Assembly: GCA_026394395.1 (NCBI GenBank)
Contig: JAPKYK010000006.1
Location: 62,001 to 126,000, forward strand
Direction of reading: 5' to 3'
DNA length: 64,000 bases
DNA from: Methanomassiliicoccales archaeon
GTDB lineage: Archaea; Thermoplasmatota; Thermoplasmata; Methanomassiliicoccales; UBA472
The notes beneath the pieces are model-generated. The model was not told the origin of the DNA. It did no database searches and worked only from the letters and a program-made list of their open reading frames with translations. Made by a program: the position numbers and the translations under genes. Below, one piece after another: positions 5,165-58,340 of this stretch. The first letter of the stretch is position 1. Each line of letters begins with the position of its first letter.

Positions 5165-8100
5165 TTATTCGCCCGCATCGTCCTCCTCCCTGGACGGCTC
5201 CTCGGGCTCTTCTCCGGGAGCGCTTAACGAGGAGTCGCCGTGGACCTCGGCCTCCTCCACCGCCTGTTCCTCCTTGCGGCCGGCGAGCCGGGCGACGGCT
5301 ATTACCTTGTCCCCTTCTCGCAGGTTCATGACCGTGACGCCCTGCGTGGCCCGTCCCATGACCCTGATGTCGGCCACCCGGATGCGTTGCACCATGCCGT
5401 TGACCGAGGCTAGTATCAGCTCGTCGTCCTCCTCTACCTCGAGGACGGACACGACGTCGCCGTTGCGCCCCTCGGTGCGGATGGTTATCACGCCTTTGCT
5501 GCCGCGGTGGGTCTTGCGGTAGGTATCGCGCTCGTCGTCCGCGTCCTTCTTGCCGACCACGGATATCTTGCCGTAGCCGTTCTCGGTGACGGTGAGCAGC
5601 CGGGATTCGGAGGTCACGATGGTCATGCTGACCACCTCGTCGTCCGGCTCCGGTCTTATGCCGATGACCCCGTGCGCCGGTCGCCCCATGGGCCTGACCT
5701 GGTCCTGAGCGAAGCGGCAGGCCAGGCCCTTCCTGGTGGCCAGTATGACCTCCTCGTTCTCCTCGACGATCTTCACGTCCACCAGCTGGTCGCCCTCCTC
5801 CAGGCCCACGGCTATTAGTCCCCGCGAGCGGACGTTGGCGTACGCTTCGAGAGCGGTCTTCTTGATGATGCCCAGGCGGGTGGCGAACAGGAGGTACTGC
5901 TCCCCCCGTAGGCCGGTGACGGTGCGGGTGGCCATGACCTTCTCGCCATCCGCCAGCTTGGGAAGTAGGTTGACTATGGGCTTTCCTTTGGACTGGCGGC
6001 TGCCCACGGGCACCTGCCAGGCCTTGAGAGTGTACATCTTCCCCAGGTTGGTGAAGAACAGCACCTGGTCGTGGGTCATGCTGACGAAGAGGTCGGTGAC
6101 GATGTCCTCCTCCTTGGTCTCCATGCCCATGAGCCCGATGCCCCCGCGGTGCTGCTGCTTGTAGGTGTCCAGCGGCATGCGCTTGATGTAGCCGTCCTGG
6201 GTGATCATGAGCACCATCTCCTCGTTGGGTATGAGGTCCTCGATGTCCATGTCCAGGGCATGAGCGACTATTTCCGTGCGCCTTTCGTCGCCGTACTTCT
6301 TCTTCATCTCCAGCGTCTCCGCCTTGATGATTCCGAGTATGCGAGGCTCGTTCGCCAGGATGTCCTCCAGGTCGCGTATGAGCTTCTCTATCTCCAGGAA
6401 CTCGGCCTGTATGGACTCCAGCTCCAGACCGGTCAGCTTCTGCAGCCTCATGTCCAGTATGGCTTTCGCCTGCTCCTCGTCCAGCTCGAACCGGGCTATC
6501 AGCCCGGTGCGGGCCTCCTCGGGAGAGTTGGCGGAGCGGATGATGTGCAGCGTTTCGTCCAGGGCGCTGATGGCCTTGACCAGCCCCTGCAGTATGTGGT
6601 CGCGCTTCTTCGCTTGCGTCAGGTCGAACTGGGTCCGGCGTACGACGACCTCGTGGCGGTGCTGGATGAAGGTCTGCATCTCCTCCTTCAGGGTGAGCAC
6701 CCTGGGCTGGTTGTTCACCAGCGCCAGGTTGATGACGCCGAAGGTGATCTCCATCTGCGTGTGGGAGAACAGTTGGTTGAGTATCACCTCTTCCATCACG
6801 TCCTTGCGCAGGTCGATGACTATGCGCATCCCATCGCGGTCCGACTCATCCCTGAGGTCGGTTATTCCGTCGATCTTCTTGTCCTTGACCAGCTCGGCGA
6901 TGTTCTCGATCAGGGTCGCCTTGTTGACCTGGTAGGGTATCTCGTCCACGATGATGCGCTTGCGGTGCTCCAGGTCCTCGAAGTGCGTCTTTGCCCGCAC
7001 CTTGAGCTTACCTCGTCCCGTCTGGTACGCCTCCAGGATACCGCTGAGACCATAGATGGTGCCGCCCGTCGGGAAGTCCGGGCCCTTGATGAACTGCATG
7101 AGGTCCAAGATTTCGGCCTGAGGGTTGTCCACCAGGTAAACGAGCGCGTCCGCGACCTCGGATAGATTGTGCGGGGGCATGTTGGTGGCCATGCCTACTG
7201 CTATGCCGGAGGAGCCGTTCACGATCAGGTTGGGCAGCTTGGACGGGAGGACCAGCGGTTCCTTCAGCGAGGCATCGAAGTTGTCACCCCATTCCACCGT
7301 CTCCTTGTCCAGGTCGGCCAACATGTCCTCGGCCCTCTCCTCCATGCGGCACTCGGTGTACCTCATGGCCGCGGCCTGGTCGCCGTCCACGGAACCGAAG
7401 TTACCTTGGCCGTCGATCAATGTGTATCGTAAAGAGAAGTCCTGTGCCAGGCGCACCATCGAATCGTAGACGGCCGTGTCGCCGTGCGGATGATATTTAC
7501 CTAGGCAATTGTGCACTATGACCCCGTTCGCCATGAACTCGTGCGCACCGGCGACCTGCAGGTCGTAGGTCTTCTGGGCGGGAGCCTCTGCGACCTTGGT
7601 TACTTGGACGAAGTACAGGTGGTCGTCCACCACATCTTCGATGAAGGGGCAGAGCTTGGATTGTATCCTCACAAGCTTTTCCTGGAGCCCCCAGTCCTTC
7701 AGCTGCGTGCGGCCGAGGGGGCGTTCCTTCAGGTCGGAGGAGTAACGAATCTTCGTCCCGTTCGGATAGCAGATTCCAGACCTGAACTTCCCACCGTTGA
7801 TATCTTCATACCAACCTCCACCCAGATGATGGTCGGACAGCTCCTGGAACACTGCTTGCCCCAGGAACGGTATGCGGTCGTTGGGAGCAGCGTCCACGTT
7901 CGCGTGCAAGATGCGTTCCAACCTGGACCTCTTGGACTCGCTCCCAAGGTCCAGCATGCCTGCGAGGGCCTTGGCGAAACGCCCCCTCGCCTCTATCGCA
8001 TAGAACTGATGACGAGAGATGATTATGCTGTCATTGATCGTGCGATACTCATCGCTCACTTTCTGGATATAGCGACTGGATAGGATGCCGAGATGCTGCA

Positions 8101-9163
8101 GTACCAGCTGCAGGTCGTCGGCCATCTGGGAAGATACGGTCCCGTAATGCACGGAGTTCCGTTCGTTGTGGACGGACCCGTCTCCGTCGACCATGCCGGA
8201 CATCAACGCTGCGATTACTGATTTGGGGGAGCGGAAGAAGGCTTCGGGGATGCGTTTGGTCGGGGCCTTCCAAGACGGATCAATGCCTAAGGCGGAAGCA
8301 AGGTAATTGTTCAGTTCTCGCCTGTTCACACGTACCTGATAGGTTATCTCCACGGTTTGGTTGCCATCCGAGTGGAAGAAGTCCTTACTGTTCATCTCCA
8401 CGTTGGCTTCGTATCCAAAGGCGCGGCTGAGGCATCTACTTACCTTTTGCATGACCTCTTCGCTAGCCGAGAAGAAGCATATGCGGAAGTTGTCCGCCTC
8501 GAACCAACCGTCAGAGAGGAATTGCCCGATGAGATAGGCGATGTCCTCGTCCAAGAACATCTCCTTGCCTTGCCATTCCGGTAGCTTGACCTTGGGAAGC
8601 TCGGGATACTCCAAGCGCATCACGAGATGGTCGCCCTCCATCAGGTCCTTGGCCTCCTTCCATTCGTATCGGAGGTCCTGGGTCAGGACCTTGAACGGCT
8701 GTGATGGGGTGCAGGTGAACCCCAATCCGTTCTCGATGTTCACGCGAAGCAGCTGCCTTTCAGGCATTTCGTACAGTTCGGTCACGTGCGACATGCCGTT
8801 CTGCGTGTAGACCTTCTCTCCGCGCTGCACTTGCTCGATGGGAATGAGCCCTCTTTCCGTTAGCACCCGGGTGCCAGCCACGAAGCATTCACCCACTACC
8901 CTGGCGCTCTTCTTGTGCGCCTTGTTGTGGTTGAGCGATAGGTCGTACATGGAGTAAAGGATGCGACGGTGGACAGGCTTTAGCCCATCCCTGGCGTCCG
9001 GAAGCGCCCTGGATACAATTACGCTCATGGCGTAGTCGATGTAGGACTTCTTCATCTCCCTCTCGAGGGGCTGGAGCACGATCTTGTTCGTACCGGCGTC
9101 TGGGACCTTGACATCCCCCGCGTTCTGTACCGGGGCCTGCTGATTGGTATCTTCGTCGGTCAT
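5165..9163 (-). CDS. gyrA: DNA gyrase subunit A with intein
   Basis: GyrA cuts and rejoins DNA in the A2B2 gyrase that introduces negative supercoils. The precursor has 1332 residues because a 460-residue intein follows residue 92; the mature protein would be ~872 residues, a normal GyrA length. Visible signatures: [19 protein letters not shown], the [12 protein letters not shown] helix (Thr at the E. coli Ser83 position), catalytic Tyr in [10 protein letters not shown], and a C-terminal beta-propeller with a GyrA-box-like QQHRGGIG. The tail is acidic. An ATG at 9163 is chosen over a further upstream extension because GAGGTGAGA precedes it and it sits 10 bases after the gyrB stop. It is the second gene of a gyrB-gyrA operon. 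Bacterial-type gyrase in archaea is generally attributed to an old transfer from bacteria. Confidence 0.97.
7508..8887 (-). mobile_element. GyrA intein with LAGLIDADG homing endonuclease
   Basis: A 460-residue intein begins with Cys1 ([13 protein letters not shown]), ends with His-Asn (ANGVIVHN) and is followed by Cys+1 ([10 protein letters not shown]). It splits the [16 protein letters not shown] stretch upstream of the catalytic tyrosine. Two dodecapeptide motifs, LIGQFLSDG (119-127) and [10 protein letters not shown] (228-237), show an intact-looking DOD endonuclease, so it may still home. Block F ([11 protein letters not shown]) is normal. Block B reads CTPSQPF, with Gln63 where the usual histidine stands. 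The frame is uninterrupted. Confidence 0.95.
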
Positions 9164-9173
9164 TATTCTCACC

Positions 9174-11176
<2,003 letters not shown>

Positions 11177-31236: not shown

Positions 31237-34200
31237 TCAGTCGCTGGTGATGAGCTTGTAGTGTCCGGCCTGCACCTCAAAGATGTCCCCGGCCTGCTTC
31301 AGCTTCCGCAGCACTTCCTTGAGCTCCACCTCGGACAGGTTGCGCTCGCTCGCCTTCTGTATCAGGGTCAGCTCGGATATGCCGGAGCGGGGGTCGGAGT
31401 TGTCGTGTATGAGCTGCCGCACCAGGGCGATGCGGTTCCTCTCGTTGCGCGTGGTCCCGGTCATCAGCTTGTCCACATCGATGGTGCCCTCGTCCGAGGC
31501 CATCTTCTTCAGGTAGTGCTCCACGATCTTTATGGCGCGGTCCGCGTCCTCTTTGGCGACGATCTGAGAGAGGCGTATGCGCGCGGACGCCTCGGACAAA
31601 CGGATGAAGGCCTCCAGTTGCCTGGCGGTGATGGGGACCGACGACCCCTGCTTCTCCCCCAGCTTGCGTATGGAGAGGTATTTGTCGATTATCAGCTGCC
31701 TGGCTTCGTCGCTCAGCACCGGGGTGTACCGTTTGGCGTGCGCCACGTACTTGCGCATGAACTCCCGGTCGAAAATGGGCTTGAGGACGTCGGTCTCCTC
31801 CATGATGCGATTGTAATCGATGCCTTTGATCGTTTCCGGGTTCGGTACGTTGCGCAGCTCGCCGCGCACGTGCCCTTTCAGGATATGCTCGGCGATCTTC
31901 TGGTCCCGGGCGGCGTTGGGCTTGTCCGTCAGAGCGAATATCAGGTCGAAACGGGAGAGCAGCGCGGGGGGCATGTTGATCTGCGACGCTAACGGCTCCG
32001 TGTCGTCGAAGCGCCCGAACTTGGGGTTGGCCGCGCCCAGCATGGAACAGCGGCACTGTAGGGAGGCGGTGATGCCGGCCTTGGCCACGCTGACCCGCTG
32101 GGACTCCATGGCCTCGTGCATGGAGGAGCGGTCCTGCTCGGTCATCTTATCTAGCTCGTCGATGGCCGCTAGCCCTTTGTCGGCAAGCACCAGCGCCCCG
32201 GCCTCGAGGGTCCAGCGCCCGTCGCCGAACTCGTCCTTCACCGCGGCGGCGGTGTTGTGCACCAGAAATCCGTTGCCGATGAAGCTGTGAGCCCCTTCGA
32301 CCGTAAGATCGTACACGTGCGGCGGCAGGTCCTCGTGCAGTTCCTTGACCCCTTTCACCTTGCTCGCGCGAACGTCCCCGGAACCAGAGCCAGATGGGGC
32401 CATGAGCAGCTTGTCGTCCGCTCTAATGTCGGACGCCCGCACCCACTTCGATTCCGCCTCGGACATGCCTCTTAGCATGGTCTCAGGGGTGACGACGATG
32501 CGCTCACCAGACGCCACTTCGAGTTCCACAAGAAATGAAGGGGTTCGCAATCGGAACAGCGCCGAGACCGGTCGGACGTCTGTATGACGGTCGTCCTTGA
32601 CCGACAGCGCTCCGTTGATCCTCGCCTCCTGCCTCCATACCCCGGGCTCGATCTCCCGGGGCGCCTTCATGCGGGACTCCACGAACTCGCCTATAGGCTG
32701 CTTCTTCCCGTTCACCTCGATGAGGGTGTCCGGGGCGACGCACAGACCGGCCGCGGAGGAGCTCTTGCCGGAGGCGTAGATGCCGCGGGGAGCCATCTCC
32801 GACATGTAGCGCAGGATCTGGCTGTTGTGGGAGATGATCCCGTTGGCCACGAAGATGTGGGTCGTATCGACCTCGATGTCGTAGACGAAGCGCTCCTCGG
32901 CCTTGACCTCCTCCTTCTTGACCACCTGGTCCCAGCCGATGCCCCGGTTGTAGCCGCAATGGTTGCCTTCCGGCACCTCATCGATGGCCACGGCAATGCA
33001 GTTGCCCTCGATTATCTTGCTGGCCGCGCGCTGCGCCAGGAAATAGGCGTTCTGCACGAACAGCGGGTGCGTCGACGTCATCGTCAGCGTGCGCCCGGAC
33101 TCGGTGGTGAACTTGAGAAGACGGCGCGGCGAGTCGCGCCTCCAGACGCGCATCGCCCTTCCTTTTTCCAGGTAGCCCCGGTGGGTGAAGGTCATGACCT
33201 CGAAGTCGGCGTCGGCGTACTCGCCGTCGTCCACCTCCTTGACCTCGCCCTTGGACATCCAGCCGTCCACCAGCTCTTTTATGTTGGCCTCGGAGCTGTC
33301 GCCCATGAGCACCCGGGCATCGCCGGTCACGCACTTGGCCACCCCGGGATCGCCGACCAGCAGGATGTGTATGTCCCCCCTGATCTTGGTGCCGTCCTCC
33401 AGGTGCTTGGCCGTGCCGCCGAACAGCTGCAGGGCGATGGCCTCCTTGACCTCGTCGTAACCATGGATGGCTGGGGCGATGGAGCCGACGATCTTGCGGA
33501 AGACCTCCGGGTCGCTGGCCTCCTTCTTTATCCGCTCCTCGTCCTCCTCGGAGATCTGCACCTCCTCGTACTCGTGCTGCTCGAACTCCATGGAGAGCAC
33601 GTCCAGGTCGATGTCGAAGAGCGTGGACTTGATCTGCTTGTCCTTTTGACGGCTGCGCAGGACGCCGTTGAGCACCACCCGGTCGCCCGGCGCGATTATC
33701 CCTGCCAGGTCGTCCTCGAGGTAGGCCGTCAGCCGTTCAGGCTGGGCCCCGCCGCGCAGCCCTTCCGGGGACTCCTGCATCTCCACCTTCTGCGTGTCGA
33801 CGTAGATGGATTCCTCGGCCTGCAGCACGAACTTGGTGCTTCCGGCGGTCCGCCCGCAGCCCTCCTGTTCCTTGTAGCATTCCATGGGCTCACGGAAGAA
33901 CAGGCCGTCCTGCGGTTCCACGATCCGGGCGGGGCAGCGCATGCACTTGAAGACGCCCAATATCAGGCGCGGTCGCACCTCCGTGGCCTTGCGCACCAGT
34001 CCCTCCACGGACAGTAATTTGCCGAGATGCTCGCTGCGCAGATGGCGGATCTCGATGCGGCTGTCGCGCGGCAGGTCCTTGATGCGCAGGTGGATGTCTA
34101 TACTGGCCTTGCTGGGGCTCATCAGGCGCTTGACCACCCCCTCCCCTTTCTCGAGGGAGCGGTCTGGGTGGAGCAGGATGAAGGAGGCGAAGTCCGGGTC

Positions 34201-34356
34201 GAAGCGGTCGATGTCCGAATAAGTGACGGTCAAGCTCCTCAGCCCAGGATACCTGTCGGTGAGCTCGAGCAGCTTGAGGCGGTTCTCCTCTGCCTCTAGG
34301 AACTCTTCCCAACGCGCGACCAGGTCCTCATCAGTGTAGTCGATAGGCAAAACCAT
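31237..34356 (-). CDS. mcm: replicative DNA helicase MCM with two mini-inteins
   Basis: MCM is the hexameric 3'-5' helicase at archaeal forks. The precursor has 1039 residues; removal of inteins of 170 and 163 residues leaves 706, a usual archaeal size. The N-terminal domain has a zinc site (CMRC with later cysteines in MECYKEQEGCGR). Walker A is GDPGVAK/SQ, interrupted by the first intein. The second intein splits SSSAAGL/TAAAV 27 residues later. Walker B is GLAAIDELDKM, the arginine finger region is LLSRFDLIFAL, and a winged helix ends the protein. ATG 34356 (after a GTG one codon earlier) is preceded by GGAG. The helicase cannot be active without splicing, because the P-loop is split. Confidence 0.96.
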   Translation of the reverse strand: MVLPIDYTDEDLVARWEEFLEAEENRLKLLELTDRYPGLRSLTVTYSDIDRFDPDFASFILLHPDRSLEKGEGVVKRLMSPSKASIDIHLRIKDLPRDSRIEIRHLRSEHLGKLLSVEGLVRKATEVRPRLILGVFKCMRCPARIVEPQDGLFFREPMECYKEQEGCGRTAGSTKFVLQAEESIYVDTQKVEMQESPEGLRGGAQPERLTAYLEDDLAGIIAPGDRVVLNGVLRSRQKDKQIKSTLFDIDLDVLSMEFEQHEYEEVQISEEDEERIKKEASDPEVFRKIVGSIAPAIHGYDEVKEAIALQLFGGTAKHLEDGTKIRGDIHILLVGDPGVAKCVTGDARVLMGDSSEANIKELVDGWMSKGEVKEVDDGEYADADFEVMTFTHRGYLEKGRAMRVWRRDSPRRLLKFTTESGRTLTMTSTHPLFVQNAYFLAQRAASKIIEGNCIAVAIDEVPEGNHCGYNRGIGWDQVVKKEEVKAEERFVYDIEVDTTHIFVANGIISHNSQILRYMSEMAPRGIYASGKSSSAAGLCVAPDTLIEVNGKKQPIGEFVESRMKAPREIEPGVWRQEARINGALSVKDDRHTDVRPVSALFRLRTPSFLVELEVASGERIVVTPETMLRGMSEAESKWVRASDIRADDKLLMAPSGSGSGDVRASKVKGVKELHEDLPPHVYDLTVEGAHSFIGNGFLVHNTAAAVKDEFGDGRWTLEAGALVLADKGLAAIDELDKMTEQDRSSMHEAMESQRVSVAKAGITASLQCRCSMLGAANPKFGRFDDTEPLASQINMPPALLSRFDLIFALTDKPNAARDQKIAEHILKGHVRGELRNVPNPETIKGIDYNRIMEETDVLKPIFDREFMRKYVAHAKRYTPVLSDEARQLIIDKYLSIRKLGEKQGSSVPITARQLEAFIRLSEASARIRLSQIVAKEDADRAIKIVEHYLKKMASDEGTIDVDKLMTGTTRNERNRIALVRQLIHDNSDPRSGISELTLIQKASERNLSEVELKEVLRKLKQAGDIFEVQAGHYKLITSD
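32254..32742 (-). mobile_element. MCM mini-intein 2
   Basis: 163 residues from Cys1 (CVAPDTLIEVNGKK) to His-Asn (GNGFLVHN), then Thr+1. It sits in the GKSSSAAGL/TAAAV segment. Block F is normal (VYDLTVEGAHSF). Block B reads VTPETML, with Thr where histidine is expected. No endonuclease motif is present. Confidence 0.93.
32824..33333 (-). mobile_element. MCM mini-intein 1 (Walker A site)
   Basis: 170 residues from Cys1 (CVTGDARVLMGDSS) to His-Asn (ANGIISHN), then Ser+1. It is inserted inside the P-loop between GDPGVAK and S, a well-known MCM intein site. Block B has the expected Thr-x-x-His (TSTHP). There is no LAGLIDADG motif and the length is that of a splicing domain alone, so it cannot home by itself. 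Confidence 0.95.
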
Positions 34357-34437
34357 CACTCCGTGGTTCGAAGGCGTTTCGTTCGTTAGCGTAACGCTAG
34401 GGAACTAAGGGTATCCCGTACAGGGAGATTTATCTTT

Positions 34438-51329: not shown

Positions 51330-52622
51330 TTATAGTCCCATTCTTTTCAGCGGTTTGCCCAGGTGGCGCCGGGCGCAGACCGGAGGTTCGTACCAGCCCG
51401 GTGAGATGCTCCTGGGCACCTCGGCCGTCGCCGGCGGAAGGTCGTTCTTGGCCCCGCACTTCTTGCAGCGGTAACCTCCGGAGGAACCTATGGACTTGGT
51501 GGGGCCGCCGCAGGCGGGGCACCGGGGGTTGGAGACCTTGCGCAGCTCCGGCGCCGTGGATACCACCTGCAATTTCTCAATGTTGAGGGTGCGGGGCTCG
51601 GCGCGCAGCTCCCCGAACAGCCGCAGGCGGTCGCCTAGCCGCAGAGCCCGGACGACGTCTCGGAACTCCTTGGTCGGCTCGTAGGCCGCGCACTCCAGTT
51701 GCCCTTTCTTCGTGCTTACGGGGACGATGACGTGCCCGCCTTGGACGGTCGTCGGCGTGCCGGCGACGGTGGCGAAGAAGTCGTAGGAGCGATCGGGGAG
51801 CTCTGGCTCGGCGCGGATGAGATGGTCGTCGGTCCCCTGGTTGGTCAGGAACATCATCCAGCGGGAGGGCGGCTCCGAGCGCAGGCTGAACACCGCGGAC
51901 ATTAGCTCCTGGGGGTCGTCCCCGCGCACGCCGAAGAGCACCGGGCAGGGGGTGTGCGGGGATATGGCCCGGCGGCCGGTCCGGTGATCGAAGTTGTTGA
52001 AGGTGCTGGGGAACCGCAGGTCCATGTCCCGGACCGACCCGTCGTCCAGATAGCGGGGCGTCCCCCACCTCTCTGGTTGGCGGTAAGTGATGATCTCGTA
52101 AGTGCTGTCGTGAGGGCGCCAGGCCATGGCCGCCGAGGCCCCGATTATTCCGCGTCCTCCCTCCCAGCCGACCAGGTCTGCACCGATCCTCTGCAGCTCG
52201 CGCAGAGTGCCCTCCTTCTCCACTATTCCGCGCACCGCTTCCCAATACAGGCGCTGGGCCGGTTTCTGCAGGGAGACCACCAGTCCGGGGCTGGCCCCTT
52301 CCCTGGTCCGGGACCACTTGCCCACGATGGCCTGGGCGGTGCGCAGCACCATTTGACGGTCCGCTTCCTCATACATGCGGTTGTAGCTGTATATGGGGGC
52401 GCCGTCGATCTCGCCGACCATGTTGCATTTCCCCCTGCCCACGCCGAAGCGGACGCACAGCGCCCCGTTGCCCCTTGTCTTCCAGGGCACGGCCGGGTTC
52501 AGTCGAACTAACCGGGGCAGGCCGATGAGGTCGTATCCTCTCAGGGCCTTGATGACCTCGGTGGCGAGGAAGGTGGTGCACATCGATTCGAGGGAGTCGG
52601 TATCGTCGAAGGCGACGAACAT
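51330..52622 (-). CDS. tiaS: tRNA(Ile2) 2-agmatinylcytidine synthetase TiaS
   Basis: A 430-residue enzyme that attaches agmatine to C34 of tRNA-Ile(CAU) so that it reads AUA. The N-terminal motif FVAFDDTDSLESMCTTFLA, FNNFDHRTGRR, and the OB-fold segment near 290-350 match TiaS. A C-terminal zinc ribbon is present (CPACGG and CKKCG). The length is normal. It is transcribed away from the small membrane protein gene at 52709. The tRNA-Ile substrate is not in the window. Confidence 0.93.
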   Translation of the reverse strand: MFVAFDDTDSLESMCTTFLATEVIKALRGYDLIGLPRLVRLNPAVPWKTRGNGALCVRFGVGRGKCNMVGEIDGAPIYSYNRMYEEADRQMVLRTAQAIVGKWSRTREGASPGLVVSLQKPAQRLYWEAVRGIVEKEGTLRELQRIGADLVGWEGGRGIIGASAAMAWRPHDSTYEIITYRQPERWGTPRYLDDGSVRDMDLRFPSTFNNFDHRTGRRAISPHTPCPVLFGVRGDDPQELMSAVFSLRSEPPSRWMMFLTNQGTDDHLIRAEPELPDRSYDFFATVAGTPTTVQGGHVIVPVSTKKGQLECAAYEPTKEFRDVVRALRLGDRLRLFGELRAEPRTLNIEKLQVVSTAPELRKVSNPRCPACGGPTKSIGSSGGYRCKKCGAKNDLPPATAEVPRSISPGWYEPPVCARRHLGKPLKRMGL

Positions 52623-52708: not shown

Positions 52709-53056
52709 ATGTCCAAGCCGATTACTGTGGAGTGGGGGCTGGAGATATCGATCATACTGACGGCCTTTGGGGCGGTGCTCTTGCTGGGGGGGCTGTCCGA
52801 TGCGCTCGACTGGTGGCTGGACCTGGGTGGCTGGGGCTTTTGGGTCGGCGGTACTGGGATAGTTCTTCTGTTGGTCGGACTGATATGGTTGATCGGCCTT
52901 ATTCTGCGCAGACAGCAGTTCAACGAGTTGATCGTCGAGAGCAGTAGGGCTGCTTTCGTGAAGAGCCTTGATGAGCTGGAGTACACCGCTTGGCGTCTTC
53001 CTTCGAAATATGATGTGAAGGTTATAGAGAAGAAGAAGGATATGGGTGTTAAGTGA
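52709..53056 (+). CDS. small two-helix membrane protein
   Basis: A 115-residue protein. Two adjacent membrane helices (ISIILTAFGAVLLLGGLSDAL and WGFWVGGTGIVLLLVGLIWLIGLIL) precede a ~45-residue cytoplasmic tail rich in Glu, Lys and Ser. The family is not recognised. Its stop is just six bases before ORB-like element 2, so it borders the candidate origin. Confidence 0.55.
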   Translation: MSKPITVEWGLEISIILTAFGAVLLLGGLSDALDWWLDLGGWGFWVGGTGIVLLLVGLIWLIGLILRRQQFNELIVESSRAAFVKSLDELEYTAWRLPSKYDVKVIEKKKDMGVK

Positions 53057-53061
53057 GGGGG

Positions 53062-53084
53062 ACCCCATCATTTCCATTGGAAGC
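53062..53084 (-). other. ORB-like element 2 (Orc1/Cdc6 binding box)
   Basis: On the minus strand from 53082: TTCCAATGGAAATGATGGGGT, then a C-run. It has the dyad TTCCAnnGGAA plus adjacent G-string of archaeal origin recognition boxes. It matches element 1 at 54523 in 19 of 21 positions in the opposite orientation. Confidence 0.7.
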
Positions 53085-53089
53085 TTTTT

Positions 53090-53184
53090 TAGTGACCGTT
53101 AATCTGGACAGGTTCGTTTTTAAGTGGTGTTAAAAGTTTTATAGTAATTCTTATAATATAATTAATTCAATAAAAATCGATTAT
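53090..53184. other. AT-rich stretch beside the ORB element (candidate unwinding region)
   Basis: From ~53085 to 53184 the DNA is strongly AT-rich (TTATAATATAATTAATTCAATAAAAATC), and the hflX 3' end continues AT-rich. No gene is present. Position next to an ORB-like element suggests a duplex unwinding region, by inference. It could also act as a T-run terminator. Confidence 0.45.
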
Positions 53185-54459
53185 CTATCTATCATACTTA
53201 TTATCACTTTCACTTATAACATTAGAAATTCCTGGAAGGTCGTAGATAACGTCCATGATCGAATCCACATCATCGACCGTACACCGGAACACCACCTTGA
53301 CCACATCCGAATATTCTATAGATTCAACATAATAATCCTCATAGATCCTTGAAATAACGGTAGAAGCTGCAGAGGTATTGTTGGCGGAAAAACGGACCAG
53401 CACCGGTGGTCGCAAATAGGTGCTCACCACGTCCATCAACGAATCGACACCCTCCCCAGTCATCGCCGAAATAGGGACCACGGCCAGTGGATCCAACAGA
53501 TCATTGACGATCGTCATCATGTCCGTCATGCGGTCCGGATCGACGTCGCACTTGTTTAATGCCACCAGGATACGGCCCCCCGGGACCCCGCTTCCCAATA
53601 TGTCCTGCACCGCCCCCACCTTCACATTCACATCATAGAGCGGCTCGGACGAATCGACCACCAATATCACCAGGTCTGCGGTGTAGATGTCCCGCAAGGT
53701 GTTCCGGAACGATTCTATCATATAGTGAGGCAGGTCCCTAAGGAAACCGACCGTGTCAGTGAGCAGGACCTTGGTGGACCCCACCCGTCTGGTGGTCGTC
53801 CCCAGCGTGGAGAACATGCGATCGGCCACCAGGACCTCTTCCCCGGTCAGCCTTCGCATCAGGGACGACTTTCCGGCGTTCGTATAACCGGCCAGGCAGA
53901 CCGCCCTAAACCCCTTGTACTGCCGAACGCCCCTGCGGAGGTCCCCGTCCCGGGCCAGCCCCCGCAGCTCCTCCTCGATCTGGGCTATCCTTCTCCGGAT
54001 GACGTTGTAATACACATCCACCGTATACTCACCAGCACCAAGGAATCCCGGGTGCTCCCCAGCCTTCGCGCTGTGCACCCACTCCCTCATCAACGGAACC
54101 TGGTAGTGCAATCTGGCCAGCTCTACCTGCAGCTTGGACTCTCGGCTCTCCGCCCTGGACGTGAAAATGTCCAGCACCACGCCGATGCGGTCCAGGCACT
54201 CCTTCTTCAAGCCGTTCTCCAGGTTGAAGTGCTGCGACGGCTTCAGGTCGCCGTTGATCACCAGCACCTCCACGTCCCTCTCCTTCAGCAGCTCTTGGAG
54301 CGCCCGGAACCTTCCCTTTCCAAGAAAATAGGACCGGTCTGGTCTGGTCCGCTGCTGCACAATCTCGAAGACGAGGTCTATATCAGCAGAGCGACACAGC
54401 TCCTCTATCTCAGCAACATCCTGATGCAAACTTATCAAAGCGCCCTTTCTTACGGTCAC
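53185..54459 (-). CDS. hflX: HflX family GTPase
   Basis: A 424-residue ribosome-associated GTPase. The N-terminal HflX domain includes RTRPDRSYFLGKGRF and DIFTSRAESRESKLQVELARLHYQVP; the G domain has GYTNAGKSSLM (G1), DTVGFLRDLPH (G3), NKCD (G4) and ISAMTGEG (G5). It splits stalled or inactive ribosomes in characterised relatives. The start is GTG 54459, with GGGGAGA upstream inside a small hairpin. The 3' ~200 bases are AT-rich. It lies between the two ORB-like elements, so its promoter region is also the origin candidate. Confidence 0.95.
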   Translation of the reverse strand: MTVRKGALISLHQDVAEIEELCRSADIDLVFEIVQQRTRPDRSYFLGKGRFRALQELLKERDVEVLVINGDLKPSQHFNLENGLKKECLDRIGVVLDIFTSRAESRESKLQVELARLHYQVPLMREWVHSAKAGEHPGFLGAGEYTVDVYYNVIRRRIAQIEEELRGLARDGDLRRGVRQYKGFRAVCLAGYTNAGKSSLMRRLTGEEVLVADRMFSTLGTTTRRVGSTKVLLTDTVGFLRDLPHYMIESFRNTLRDIYTADLVILVVDSSEPLYDVNVKVGAVQDILGSGVPGGRILVALNKCDVDPDRMTDMMTIVNDLLDPLAVVPISAMTGEGVDSLMDVVSTYLRPPVLVRFSANNTSAASTVISRIYEDYYVESIEYSDVVKVVFRCTVDDVDSIMDVIYDLPGISNVISESDNKYDR

Positions 54460-54522
54460 GGGGTATCTCCCCCCAATCCCCTCCGCATGCTTTACCTTAT
54501 TTGGTAACAGAGGCTATCTCCG

Positions 54523-54550
54523 TTCCATCGGAAATGATGGGGTGGGGGTC
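54523..54550 (+). other. ORB-like element 1 (Orc1/Cdc6 binding box)
   Basis: TTCCATCGGAAATGATGGGGT followed by a further G-run (GGGGG). It lies 133 bases upstream of orc1/cdc6 in the gap to hflX. The dyad and G-string match the archaeal ORB pattern, and element 2 repeats it in inverted orientation. Confidence 0.75.
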
Positions 54551-54682
54551 GTTTCTATGGGCAAGGGAGGCGGGCGACATACTTACACCGCCAAACGATA
54601 AAAATAGGGTTTTAGTAAGTGATAGCGCAATCTACTTGTCCCTGACCGCGTCGGGGTCTGTTGTTATCGGCAGAGGGGCATC

Positions 54683-55921
54683 ATGGAATCCAACGTATTC
54701 ACGCAGCACATGGACCGCAAGCAGATATTCAAGAAGAACAACCGTGAGATCCTGCGGCCATCTTACATCCCGGACATGCTGCCTCACCGCCAGGAAGAGA
54801 TCAATTCCCTGGCTTCCGTTCTGGTCACCGCCCTGAAGGGGGAGAGGCCCAGCAACATACTCATATTCGGCAAGACCGGGACGGGGAAGACGGCCTGCGT
54901 AAAGTTCATCGGCAACGAGATCAAGAAAGCGAGCGGCGAAGAGAGCAAGGCCATCTTCATCTACATGAACTGCGAGGTGGTGGACACTTCGTACGGTGTG
55001 CTGCAGAACATCGGCAACCAGTTCGTCAAGGACTTCGACCAACGCATACCCTTCACCGGCCTGAGCATCATGCAGGTCTACAACATGCTGCGGGACAAGC
55101 TCGACGAGCAGAACCAGGTCATCATCATCGCCCTGGACGAGATAGACAAGCTGGTCTATAAGAGCGGGGACGATGTCCTTTACCTATTGTCCAAAATAAA
55201 CGACGACCTGAAGAAAGCTCGCGTATCGATCATAGGCATTTCCAACGACCTGCTGTTCACCGAGATGCTCGACACCCGTGTGCGCAGCCGCATGGAAGGT
55301 GAGCGGATGGTCTTCCCGCCCTACAACGCCGACCAGCTCAAGGACATCCTGCGGCAGAGGTCCTCCCTGGCCTTCGACGACGGGGCGCTGGAAGAAGCGG
55401 TCATACCGTTATGCGCTGCCCTGGCCGCCCAGGAGCACGGGGACGCCCGCCGGGCCCTCGACCTTCTGCGCATCTCCGCGGAGATCGCCGAGCGGGACAA
55501 CGCGGACAGGGTCGCGGAGCTGCACGTCCTGAAGGCCAAGAACAAGATGGAGCTGGACTGCGTGAGCGAGGCCATCCGCACGCTGCCCACGCAATCCAAG
55601 CTGGTGCTCATGTGCATCGTGACCAACGTGGAACGGGGGGTGGAGAAGCTGACCACCGGCGACGTCTATGAGACGTACAAGGAGACGTCCCGCATCCTCG
55701 GTATGGGCCCGTTGACGCAGCGCAGGATTACCGACCTCATATCCGAACTGGACATGCTGGGTATCATCCACGCCCGGGTGCGCTCCTTCGGGCGCGGAGG
55801 GCGGACCAAGGAGATAGATATGGGCGTGCCATTGGCCGAGACCAAGAAGGTGCTAGAAGAGGACGAAATCTTTATCGGCCTGAAGCACTACAAGCAGAAG
55901 AACCAGACCACGCTCATGTGA
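54683..55921 (+). CDS. cdc6: Orc1/Cdc6 replication initiator
   Basis: A 412-residue AAA+ initiator that binds ORB sites and loads MCM. Walker A is GKTGTGKT (63-70), Walker B VIIIALDEIDKL, sensor 1 ISNDLLF, and the Orc1-specific helix precedes a C-terminal winged helix (LTTGDVYETYKETSRILGMG, LTQRRITDLISELDMLGII). The gene directly follows ORB-like element 1, the usual origin-proximal position. Its stop abuts the stop of the convergent signal peptidase gene. Confidence 0.96.
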   Translation: MESNVFTQHMDRKQIFKKNNREILRPSYIPDMLPHRQEEINSLASVLVTALKGERPSNILIFGKTGTGKTACVKFIGNEIKKASGEESKAIFIYMNCEVVDTSYGVLQNIGNQFVKDFDQRIPFTGLSIMQVYNMLRDKLDEQNQVIIIALDEIDKLVYKSGDDVLYLLSKINDDLKKARVSIIGISNDLLFTEMLDTRVRSRMEGERMVFPPYNADQLKDILRQRSSLAFDDGALEEAVIPLCAALAAQEHGDARRALDLLRISAEIAERDNADRVAELHVLKAKNKMELDCVSEAIRTLPTQSKLVLMCIVTNVERGVEKLTTGDVYETYKETSRILGMGPLTQRRITDLISELDMLGIIHARVRSFGRGGRTKEIDMGVPLAETKKVLEEDEIFIGLKHYKQKNQTTLM

Positions 55922-56836
55922 TCAGCCCTTCCCGCGCTTTCGCCTCTCTCTTATCCTATTCCCAGGGCGCTTCCCCCCTTCCCTCCATACCATCCGGGCA
56001 AGCTCGATCGACAGGGGCACCAGGACGAACAATGACAGCACCAATATCAGACCGCCCTTGCTGTTCTCCGGGGTGTATACATTCTTGCCACCGTTCACAT
56101 AGAGCCGGATCAGCCCCAGCCAGGGGATCTCCACCCCCGCCTTCCCCTTGATCCAATCGTCAGGAATAGGTTCCCGGCACATATCGGTGACCGAGGACTG
56201 ATCGCAGAGCCCCAACCACTCGCCGTCGACCAGTTCAAGGTTGTGGTCGCCCATGGTAATGAGGCCGCCATGGCAAGGCCCGAACACCGTGAAATATTCT
56301 AGCAGCTCGGTCAGGTTTACCCGGAGGGTGGCCGAACGGTAACCGACGTCGTAGATCTCCACGCGCTCGGACAGGTTCCACCAACGCCCGTCCTCACATT
56401 CCCCGTTCCCCCACTTATCTGCTGGCAGGTCGGCCAAAGAGGGGGCGTCGAACCCGCCGCCCGATTCGTTGTACTCCAGGCGCAACATGGCCCGATGACA
56501 TATCCAGGTGAGATGATAGAACCCATAGCGCTCATAGACGATGACGTCCCCGTAATCTCCGAAGCTCTTATCCCCGAGGGGATAGCACTCCACGTACGTA
56601 CGGACATCATCGCCATCTGAAGATTTGACTATGATCAGATCCCCGGTGTCGATGACCCCCAGAGCGCTTTCCCTGTCGCTATGTTGCATGCTGTTCGATT
56701 TCACTGCGTACAGCGGAGGCCACACACCGCTGTAGGCCAACAGCGCGCCCTCCAACAGCGCCACGACCAATAATATGGCGATCAAGACCCGGAAGCGCCG
56801 GACCGCGGCCCAGAACTCGCTCTCCTCATCGAACAA
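55922..56836 (-). CDS. signal peptidase I family protein (S26B-like, with inserted cap), copy 1
   Basis: A 304-residue membrane protease. An N-terminal membrane helix precedes catalytic Ser49 (KSNSMQHSD). His114 (WICHRAML) replaces the bacterial lysine, as in archaeal and ER signal peptidases, and Asp197 (TMGDHNLE) completes the set. Between His114 and Asp197 is an insert of ~80 residues, PADKWGNGECEDGRWW..., and a C-terminal membrane helix (LILVLSLFVLVPLSIELARM) follows. The usual archaeal enzyme is ~170-200 residues, so this one is large. A tandem paralogue follows. Confidence 0.85.
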   Translation of the reverse strand: MFDEESEFWAAVRRFRVLIAILLVVALLEGALLAYSGVWPPLYAVKSNSMQHSDRESALGVIDTGDLIIVKSSDGDDVRTYVECYPLGDKSFGDYGDVIVYERYGFYHLTWICHRAMLRLEYNESGGGFDAPSLADLPADKWGNGECEDGRWWNLSERVEIYDVGYRSATLRVNLTELLEYFTVFGPCHGGLITMGDHNLELVDGEWLGLCDQSSVTDMCREPIPDDWIKGKAGVEIPWLGLIRLYVNGGKNVYTPENSKGGLILVLSLFVLVPLSIELARMVWREGGKRPGNRIRERRKRGKG

Positions 56837-56891
56837 CAGTACTGCTTACACCATGCCGCTAAATATATTTGAGGAACGAAAGTCCACAACC

Positions 56892-57800
56892 TCACTTCTT
56901 CCTTTTTATGCCGTTCCTCAGTTTGGCCCAGGGGTCGATGCCCTTCTTCCTCAGGACGCTGATGGTGATGTCAAAGGCCAGCGGCACGGTGATGAGCAGC
57001 GCAACCAGGACCATGAGGTCGGTCTTGCTGTTGTCCGGGGTGTCCGCGGGCATGTTCCCGTTAACCCAGAGCTTGATCAGACCCAGCCAGGGCAGTTCGA
57101 GCTTGGCCTCTCCCACGATCCATTCCTCCTCGACCGGCGAGCGACATATGGCGGAGGAGGTCTGGTCGTAAACGCCTACCCACTCGTTCCCGGAAAGTCT
57201 GACGTTGTGGTCGCCCATGGTTATGATGCCGTCGTGGCTAAGCCCAGCCGTGTTGTAATAGGAGAGCAGGTCGGCCAGGTCCACCCGGAGCGTGGCCAAC
57301 CGGTATCCAACGTCGTATATCTCCACTATGCCGGACAGGTCCCACCATCTACCGTCCTCGTAGACCCCGTTCCCCCACTTATCCGCCGGAAGGCCGGCCA
57401 GTGAAGGGGCGTCAAAGCTTTTCGAGGTCTCGTTGTACTCCAAGCGCAACATGGCCCTATGGATGATTGGGGTGAGGTCAGAACGACCGTACGGTTCATA
57501 AACGATCACATCTCCATAGTCCCCGAAGCTCTTGTCCCCGTCTGGGAAGCACTCGACGTAGGTTCGCACGCCCCCGCCGTCAGTTCCTTTGACCACGACC
57601 AGGTCCCCGGTGTCCAAAAGACCGATGGCGCTCTTCTCGTCGCTGTGCTGCATGCTCGCCGATTCGACGACGTAGACAGGCGGCCAGAGCCCGCTGTAAG
57701 CCACCATCCCCCCGAACAGTAATGCCACGATCAATACGGCTGCGATGGGCCAACGGTTGCGCTTGATCGTTCCTATTATCTTACCAGAGAGCTCAGACAA
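56892..57800 (-). CDS. signal peptidase I family protein (S26B-like, with inserted cap), copy 2
   Basis: A 302-residue paralogue of the neighbouring gene. Ser49 (ESASMQHSD), His114 (PIIHRAML) and Asp197 (TMGDHNV) have the same numbers as in copy 1 when translation begins at TTG 57800. This, with GGAGG at four bases, decides for TTG; ATG 57869 would add ~23 residues. The same inserted segment (LPADKWGNGVYEDGRWW) is conserved. Both may process exported proteins such as the surface proteins in this window, or one may be specialised. Divergent from the dCMP deaminase gene. Confidence 0.83.
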   Translation of the reverse strand: MSELSGKIIGTIKRNRWPIAAVLIVALLFGGMVAYSGLWPPVYVVESASMQHSDEKSAIGLLDTGDLVVVKGTDGGGVRTYVECFPDGDKSFGDYGDVIVYEPYGRSDLTPIIHRAMLRLEYNETSKSFDAPSLAGLPADKWGNGVYEDGRWWDLSGIVEIYDVGYRLATLRVDLADLLSYYNTAGLSHDGIITMGDHNVRLSGNEWVGVYDQTSSAICRSPVEEEWIVGEAKLELPWLGLIKLWVNGNMPADTPDNSKTDLMVLVALLITVPLAFDITISVLRKKGIDPWAKLRNGIKRKK

Positions 57801-57878
57801 CGGGCCTCCATTACGTTCTTCTTTGTAATTAATGGTGATGAACGAGGGATTAATATCATGTGGTTGCATGCGTGAGCG

Positions 57879-58340
57879 ATGAGCGACCGGCCGGACAACG
57901 ACACCTACTTCATGCGCATGGCCGAGCTGGCGGCCACCCGTTCCACCTGCCTGCGCCGCCAGGTGGGGGCGGTCATCGTGAAGGAGAAGAGGGTGCTCAC
58001 CACCGGATATAACGGTGCGCCCCGCGGCCTTCGCCACTGCGAGGAAGTTGGCTGCGTCCGTAAGCAGAACAACATAGAGTCCGGAACGCGCCACGAACTT
58101 TGCCGGGGTGTGCACGCCGAACAGAACGCGGTGATCCAAGGGGCCTATTTCGGGATTAGCATCAAGGGCGCGACCATCTACACTACCAACTTCCCCTGCG
58201 TGCTCTGCGCCAAGATCCTGCTGAACGCAGGTATAGAGGAGATAGTTTACCTCGACACCTACATCGACGAGCTATCGAAGAGCATCTTAAACGAGGCCGG
58301 GATCAAGGTTAGACAATACGTTAAACCTGTATTAAAATAG
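57879..58340 (+). CDS. deoxycytidylate deaminase family protein
   Basis: A 153-residue zinc enzyme that converts dCMP to dUMP for dTTP synthesis. The zinc site is HAE (79-81) and PCVLC (Cys107, Cys110). TGYNGAPRGLRHC is the substrate loop; extra cysteines at Cys54, Cys59 and Cys75 are typical of the family. A TATA-like TTAATATC at 57849-57857 predicts transcription starting at about the ATG, so it is probably leaderless. A ComE-like annotation is also used for this family. Confidence 0.9.
   Translation: MSDRPDNDTYFMRMAELAATRSTCLRRQVGAVIVKEKRVLTTGYNGAPRGLRHCEEVGCVRKQNNIESGTRHELCRGVHAEQNAVIQGAYFGISIKGATIYTTNFPCVLCAKILLNAGIEEIVYLDTYIDELSKSILNEAGIKVRQYVKPVLK

Follow-up and report, generated by a model that had tools for sequence, protein, structure and literature searches.

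A gene-length pair of inverted origin recognition boxes at a probable oriC1 of a Methanomassiliicoccaceae archaeon

The locus was analysed within a window of 64,000 nucleotides (the whole stretch of DNA under study) from a Methanomassiliicoccales archaeon, whose named relatives were metagenome genomes assigned to Methanomassiliicoccales or Methanomassiliicoccaceae. It contains the GTPase gene hflX, bracketed by two origin recognition boxes (ORBs), and the divergent initiator gene orc1/cdc6.1, together with the following elements and neighbours.

51330 to 52622, reverse strand: tiaS, conserved left neighbour
52709 to 53056, forward strand: small membrane protein with a weak match to DUF3198, conserved left neighbour
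53062 to 53082, reverse strand: left ORB, TTCCAATGGAAATGATGGGGT, intergenic, G-string outward, conserved across the genus and the order
53131 to 53210: AT-rich core, 85% AT, probable duplex unwinding element (DUE), overlapping the 3' end of hflX
53185 to 54459, reverse strand: hflX GTPase gene (TIGR03156, E 3e-84)
54491 to 54508: dyad TTTACCTTATTTGGTAAC, immediately inward of the right ORB and conserved in each of the nine loci aligned for the genus
54523 to 54543, forward strand: right ORB, TTCCATCGGAAATGATGGGGT, between hflX and orc1, G-string outward, conserved across the genus and the order
54683 to 55921, forward strand: orc1/cdc6.1 initiator gene (NF001625, above cut-off)
55922 to 56836, reverse strand: signal-peptidase-I-like gene (weak TIGR02228, below cut-off; synteny), conserved right neighbour

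The two ORBs were identical at 19 of 21 positions, inverted and 1440 bp apart, which confirmed the coordinates and the inversion given in the original prediction. Its placement of the orc1 start 140 bases from one copy agreed with the 139 bases measured from the end of the right ORB, and the AT-rich stretch that it had noted beside the other copy was found at 53131-53210, next to the left ORB, as the most AT-rich 80-mer of the window. AT-rich DNA is therefore present between the ORBs, but hflX also sits between them. Among solved structures, the Orc1 protein was closest to 2qby_A and 2v1u_A (Sulfolobus Cdc6-1 and Aeropyrum Cdc6), and the gene adjoining the ORBs is of the Orc1-1 type that characterizes an Orc1-1/oriC1-type origin. 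The conserved dyad TTTACCTTATTTGGTAAC could belong to a promoter, serve as an operator or be an accessory site of the origin. Beside orc1, the reverse strand carried a diverged tandem pair of signal-peptidase-I-like genes (55922-58139), neither of which reached the NCBIfam cut-off or had a Pfam match.

Both ORBs contained the TCCA-N-GAAA core and the GGGGT G-string of the ORB consensus (PMC4164010). Together with the adjoining Orc1-1-type gene, the AT-rich core and the order-wide conservation described below, this supported the earlier reading of the dyad plus G-string as an archaeal ORB. With up to three mismatches allowed, the motif matched three times in the window, against a mean of 0.01 in shuffled windows. 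The genome-wide search proposed with the original prediction returned only the same three matches in the genome (1.64 Mb in 6 contigs, 99.85% complete), all on contig C6, which carries the window; a reversed control pattern gave no match in the whole genome at the same threshold. A 21-column weight matrix trained on 81 ORBs from the order was scanned over the 156 kb of contig C6, where the main ORBs scored 33.0 and 32.7, the third site 28.3 and the rest of the contig at most 13.1, and six shuffles reached top scores of 4.1-13.8. Chance matching as the source of the ORB pair was rejected by this rarity in the window, the genome and the matrix scan. On their own contig, the matrix found no close inverted partner above noise for either ORB, and the possibility of two compact origins, one per ORB, was rejected on this ground.

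The layout was conserved among 38 loci in which both ORB sites were visible, oriented by orc1 and drawn from six families of the order (f1 to f6, numbered by our genome search). The (-) ORB preceded the (+) ORB with the G-strings outward in 38 of 38, although these are not 38 independent events because the loci are related, and the spacing was 1.3-2.4 kb in 37. In f1 to f5 and in the only f6 genus seen to retain hflX (g24), the ORBs bracketed hflX at a distance of 1.29-2.37 kb, and the right ORB of these relatives was often doubled, at about -200 and -60 from orc1. An origin spanning hflX, which the original prediction regarded as unusual, is indeed uncommon among the origins described so far, but within this order it is the norm, with inverted pairs throughout and hflX bracketed in most loci. 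In the genome G027, hflX was inverted yet still bracketed, and a second left ORB allows the distance between the ORBs to be taken as either 1.3 or 2.4 kb. At that locus (L148), the identical left ORB occurred twice, 1.1 kb apart, at -2516 and -1421 from orc1, and the left side was perhaps duplicated.

At the other f6 loci, the ORBs bracketed orc1 itself, 1.5-1.8 kb apart, with the (+) ORB between the convergent orc1 and signal-peptidase-like genes; hflX gave no match above the cut-off in the genomes searched. Since the ORB bracket was retained while its content switched, it is the bracket that was kept and not the gene inside. The genome G034, also without hflX, had a compact ORB pair of 252 bp. 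From the matching ORB layout, we infer that f6 corresponds to Methanomethylophilaceae (M. alvus). The outgroup loci in Thermoplasmata mostly had only the (+) ORB before orc1, with a confident partner in one (L011). There, the inverted ORBs at -2240 (-) and -52 (+) from orc1, 2.2 kb apart, bracketed a GcvT-like gene (named by eye) and a small membrane protein, with the left ORB inside coding sequence. Gene-spanning ORB pairs may extend beyond the order.

The base composition followed the bracket. All 38 loci had a higher AT content inside it than in the 1.5 kb flanks, by 7.5 points on average; A/T-ending codons were more frequent in hflX than in orc1 and tiaS at all 26 loci with hflX bracketed, and at the orc1-bracketing loci they were more frequent in orc1 than in tiaS in 9 of 11 (one tie) and than in the signal-peptidase gene in 10 of 11, counts which come from loci of shared ancestry and from an orc1 that evolves faster in f6. 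Local runs of synonymous A/T excess were present in the hflX of nearly all genomes. A genome-wide AT3 outlier status of hflX was rejected, and because its rank (20 of 110 and 20 of 582) was not extreme, its AT3 was kept only as a within-locus comparison. A relocated hflX was sought as an AT3 control in the family lacking it, and no hflX above the cut-off was found there. The composition of the bracket is consistent with selection that favours ready melting, or with a mutational signature left where single strands are exposed. The AT core of two genera fell on NKID codons of hflX, at about 80-84% AT. The words AAAAATC and TTATCTAT occurred at 53165-53193 here and about -1.2 kb from orc1 in the loci L009, L010 and L109, and were found with the AT core both downstream of hflX (this genus) and inside hflX (g4, g7); they may represent a DUE element in common, comparable to the Sulfolobus ucm.

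Disparity curves located the same place. On contig C6, the cumulative keto-minus-amino count was maximal at 53152, inside the AT-rich core, and the cumulative A-minus-T count was minimal at 53215, at its edge. Because hflX and orc1 point away from each other, a signal produced by transcription alone would be expected to switch between the two genes (54459-54683) and not at the far end of hflX. The complete single-contig genome G011 of a sister genus, sampled at 45% (824 kb), gave a clean triangle of keto disparity with its maximum at about 1055 kb, where the ORB pair lies at 1048.8-1050.2 kb, and its minimum on the opposite side of the chromosome, at about 149 kb; the maximum shifted to 1070 kb with coarser blocks, which sets the resolution at 5-20 kb. 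None of 2000 block permutations reached the observed amplitude. Within a contiguous stretch of 16 kb, the local keto maximum fell at 1049775, where the AT-rich tract has its edge; in that genus the tract lies inside hflX. Thus, the skew check that accompanied the original prediction was borne out by the keto/amino and A/T extrema on contig C6 and by the keto extremum in G011, but GC skew itself was uninformative as an origin locator on both. In G049, a member of the f6 loci with orc1 bracketed, disparity sampled in 20 stretches gave an ambiguous curve without a peak at the bracket.

The origin itself is not new, because Borrel et al. 2014 (PMC4153887) predicted oriC beside orc1/cdc6.1 in this order and gave ORB positions for three genomes. 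That prediction agrees with the present locus in order, gene and a near-identical ORB consensus, and Table 2 of the paper places the ORB pairs of M. alvus about 1.8 kb apart and lists a compact pair in M. intestinalis, like that of G034. In the sections consulted, it does not describe hflX as bracketed, a layout shared by several families, the compositional pattern or the site in the mcm intein (below). The new elements are the conserved gene-length bracket and its change of content from hflX to orc1, the compositional pattern, and the ORB-like word in the mcm intein; none of these was found in the literature searched.

Among characterized origins, Sulfolobus oriC1 (ORB3-DUE-ORB2) shares the inverted ORBs, Orc1-1 and the AT-rich DUE between them; each ORB binds one Orc1-1 with fixed polarity, neither of the inverted ORBs is dispensable, and together they guide MCM onto the intervening DUE with the N-tiers facing (PMC12141716). 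It differs in measuring 130 bp overall, versus 1.44 kb with a gene between here (PMC12141716). Haloarchaeal oriC1 likewise has inverted ORBs with outward G-strings and the order GTP-binding protein, cdc6, signal peptidase, but its two ORBs directly flank the AT-rich region and the GTP-binding-protein gene is a neighbour (PMC3936714, PMC4010727). In Haloarcula oriC1, deletion of either ORB impairs function, and the left ORB carries C-runs and the right one G-runs (PMC3936714). The outward direction of the G-strings was therefore correctly described in the original prediction, but the oddity that it implied was not, since outward is the usual polarity. Both dyads face inward here, as the geometry is the same as in Sulfolobus and Haloarcula oriC1; it is the distance and the intervening gene that are unusual. 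In the active origins described so far, no more than a few hundred bases separate the ORBs, and the present pair, 1440 bp apart across hflX, departs from this compact intergenic layout, which is typical of described origins and not strictly defining; the locus is thus a variant. Double hexamers still form in yeast when 300 bp separate the opposed initiator sites, from rings moving together (PMC12440816).

The third match, overlooked when two copies were originally reported (both real), lay about 20 kb from the ORB pair in the helicase gene.

31237 to 34359, reverse strand: mcm helicase gene with two mini-inteins (PF00493; PF14890 twice)
32524 to 32544, forward strand: third ORB-like site, antisense within the second mini-intein of mcm

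It was a weaker match, scoring 28.3 versus 13.1 for the next site. Exact copies of the word were present in genomes from further genera and families (G001, G006, G029-G033, G035 and G038 among them), and close variants in f2, f3, f4 and f6; wherever the locus was read, the site fell in this same intein. The distance to the origin was about 18-45 kb where one contig reached both. The flanking intein DNA was about half identical, and recent transfer of one intein was rejected on that account. Among 30 aligned inteins, chosen for containing the motif, the codons ACC CCT TCA TTT CTT GTG GAA, for the peptide TPSFLVE, were 77-100% fixed, while most other invariant residues in the same inteins used several codons. 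Of five inteins found without motif selection, none kept the peptide with other codons and all had changed residues. Protein constraint alone is therefore unlikely, given the near-fixed synonymous positions and the other residues of the inteins lacking the word. The word looks to be under constraint at the DNA level and would most simply be an Orc1 site, for which titration, regulation of mcm or a vestigial origin element are candidate roles. ORB and mini-ORB repeats in the DP1 gene of Thermococcales provide a precedent for ORBs in the coding sequence of a replication gene near oriC (PMC2643942); the gene differs, and here the word is in an intein and conserved at synonymous sites across the order. 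Ori-Finder 2, a standard prediction tool, scans intergenic sequence, and the mcm site suggests that predictors limited to intergenic DNA may miss initiator sites. The window also contained a DNA gyrase subunit A gene (5165-9268, reverse strand) with an intein carrying LAGLIDADG domains, so that two intein-bearing DNA-handling genes, gyrase subunit A and mcm, lie within 64 kb.

Other explanations of the ORB pair were weighed. The origin might consist of the left ORB and the AT core only, with the right ORB as an Orc1 operator through which orc1, and perhaps hflX, is autoregulated from the shared promoter region. The right ORB does lie in the divergent hflX/orc1 promoter region, many relatives have a second copy near -60 of orc1, and the disparity extrema are on the left side. 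This operator role is weakened because in the orc1-bracketing f6 loci the (+) ORB is downstream of orc1, between convergent genes, where it could not be an orc1 operator; moreover, the inverted orientation and the AT enrichment of the whole bracket are retained, and Sulfolobus oriC1 needs both ORBs (PMC12141716). We regard such an origin as unlikely, though not far-fetched. It is quite improbable that each ORB loads and fires alone, with initiation at both ends of hflX: the large distance and the doubled right ORB (about -200 and -60) of many relatives would suit two half-origins, but this genus has a single strong AT core, beside the left ORB, and neither side has a close inverted partner ORB above noise on its own contig.

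That the ORBs serve only as Orc1-dependent transcriptional or titration sites, with the origin of the chromosome elsewhere, seems hardly credible. Orc1 paralogues can act as transcription factors (PMC9738581), ORB clusters have been proposed to titrate Cdc6 in Haloarcula (PMC3936714), and G049 gave no clear disparity peak at its bracket in the 20 stretches sampled; against this stand the extrema at the locus in its own contig and in the complete G011, and no other comparable ORB pair was found in the genome.

The locus is, with good confidence, the Orc1-1-type chromosomal origin (oriC1) of this Methanomassiliicoccaceae archaeon, built as a gene-length bracket. A chromosomal origin here is very likely, a strong inference from sequence data, because the identity and observed polarity of the ORBs, the Orc1-1-type neighbour, the AT core, the disparity extrema on contig C6 and in G011 and the conservation in six families support it. 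By analogy with the work on Sulfolobus and Haloarcula, each ORB would be occupied by Orc1, the dyad side facing the interior of the bracket and the G-string pointing away from it, and each bound Orc1 would recruit MCM to its inner side, giving two helicases that face each other across the bracket. Melting would most likely begin in the AT-rich core beside the left ORB, from which forks would depart both ways, and the right ORB would contribute the second helicase, either by looping of the DNA or by a loaded ring that slides through hflX. The idea that the two ORBs cooperate over a distance of 1.44 kb is speculative. As a tentative but serious possibility, we propose that the origin in this order is split: two helicase-loading sites, both facing inward, would work together across a whole transcribed gene; the conserved unit would be the bracket, with hflX or orc1 inside; and the Orc1 site in the mcm intein would couple the abundance of the initiator to the helicase gene, which lies about 20 kb off.

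The order provides a natural spacing series of the same inverted ORB pair, from about 250 bp to 2.4 kb, with a transcribed gene between. Models of looping, sliding and independent loading make differing predictions across this series, which addresses whether, and over what distance, two Orc1 sites load two MCM rings at archaeal origins. The base composition that follows the bracket serves as a sequence mark of where the DNA is melted or exposed.
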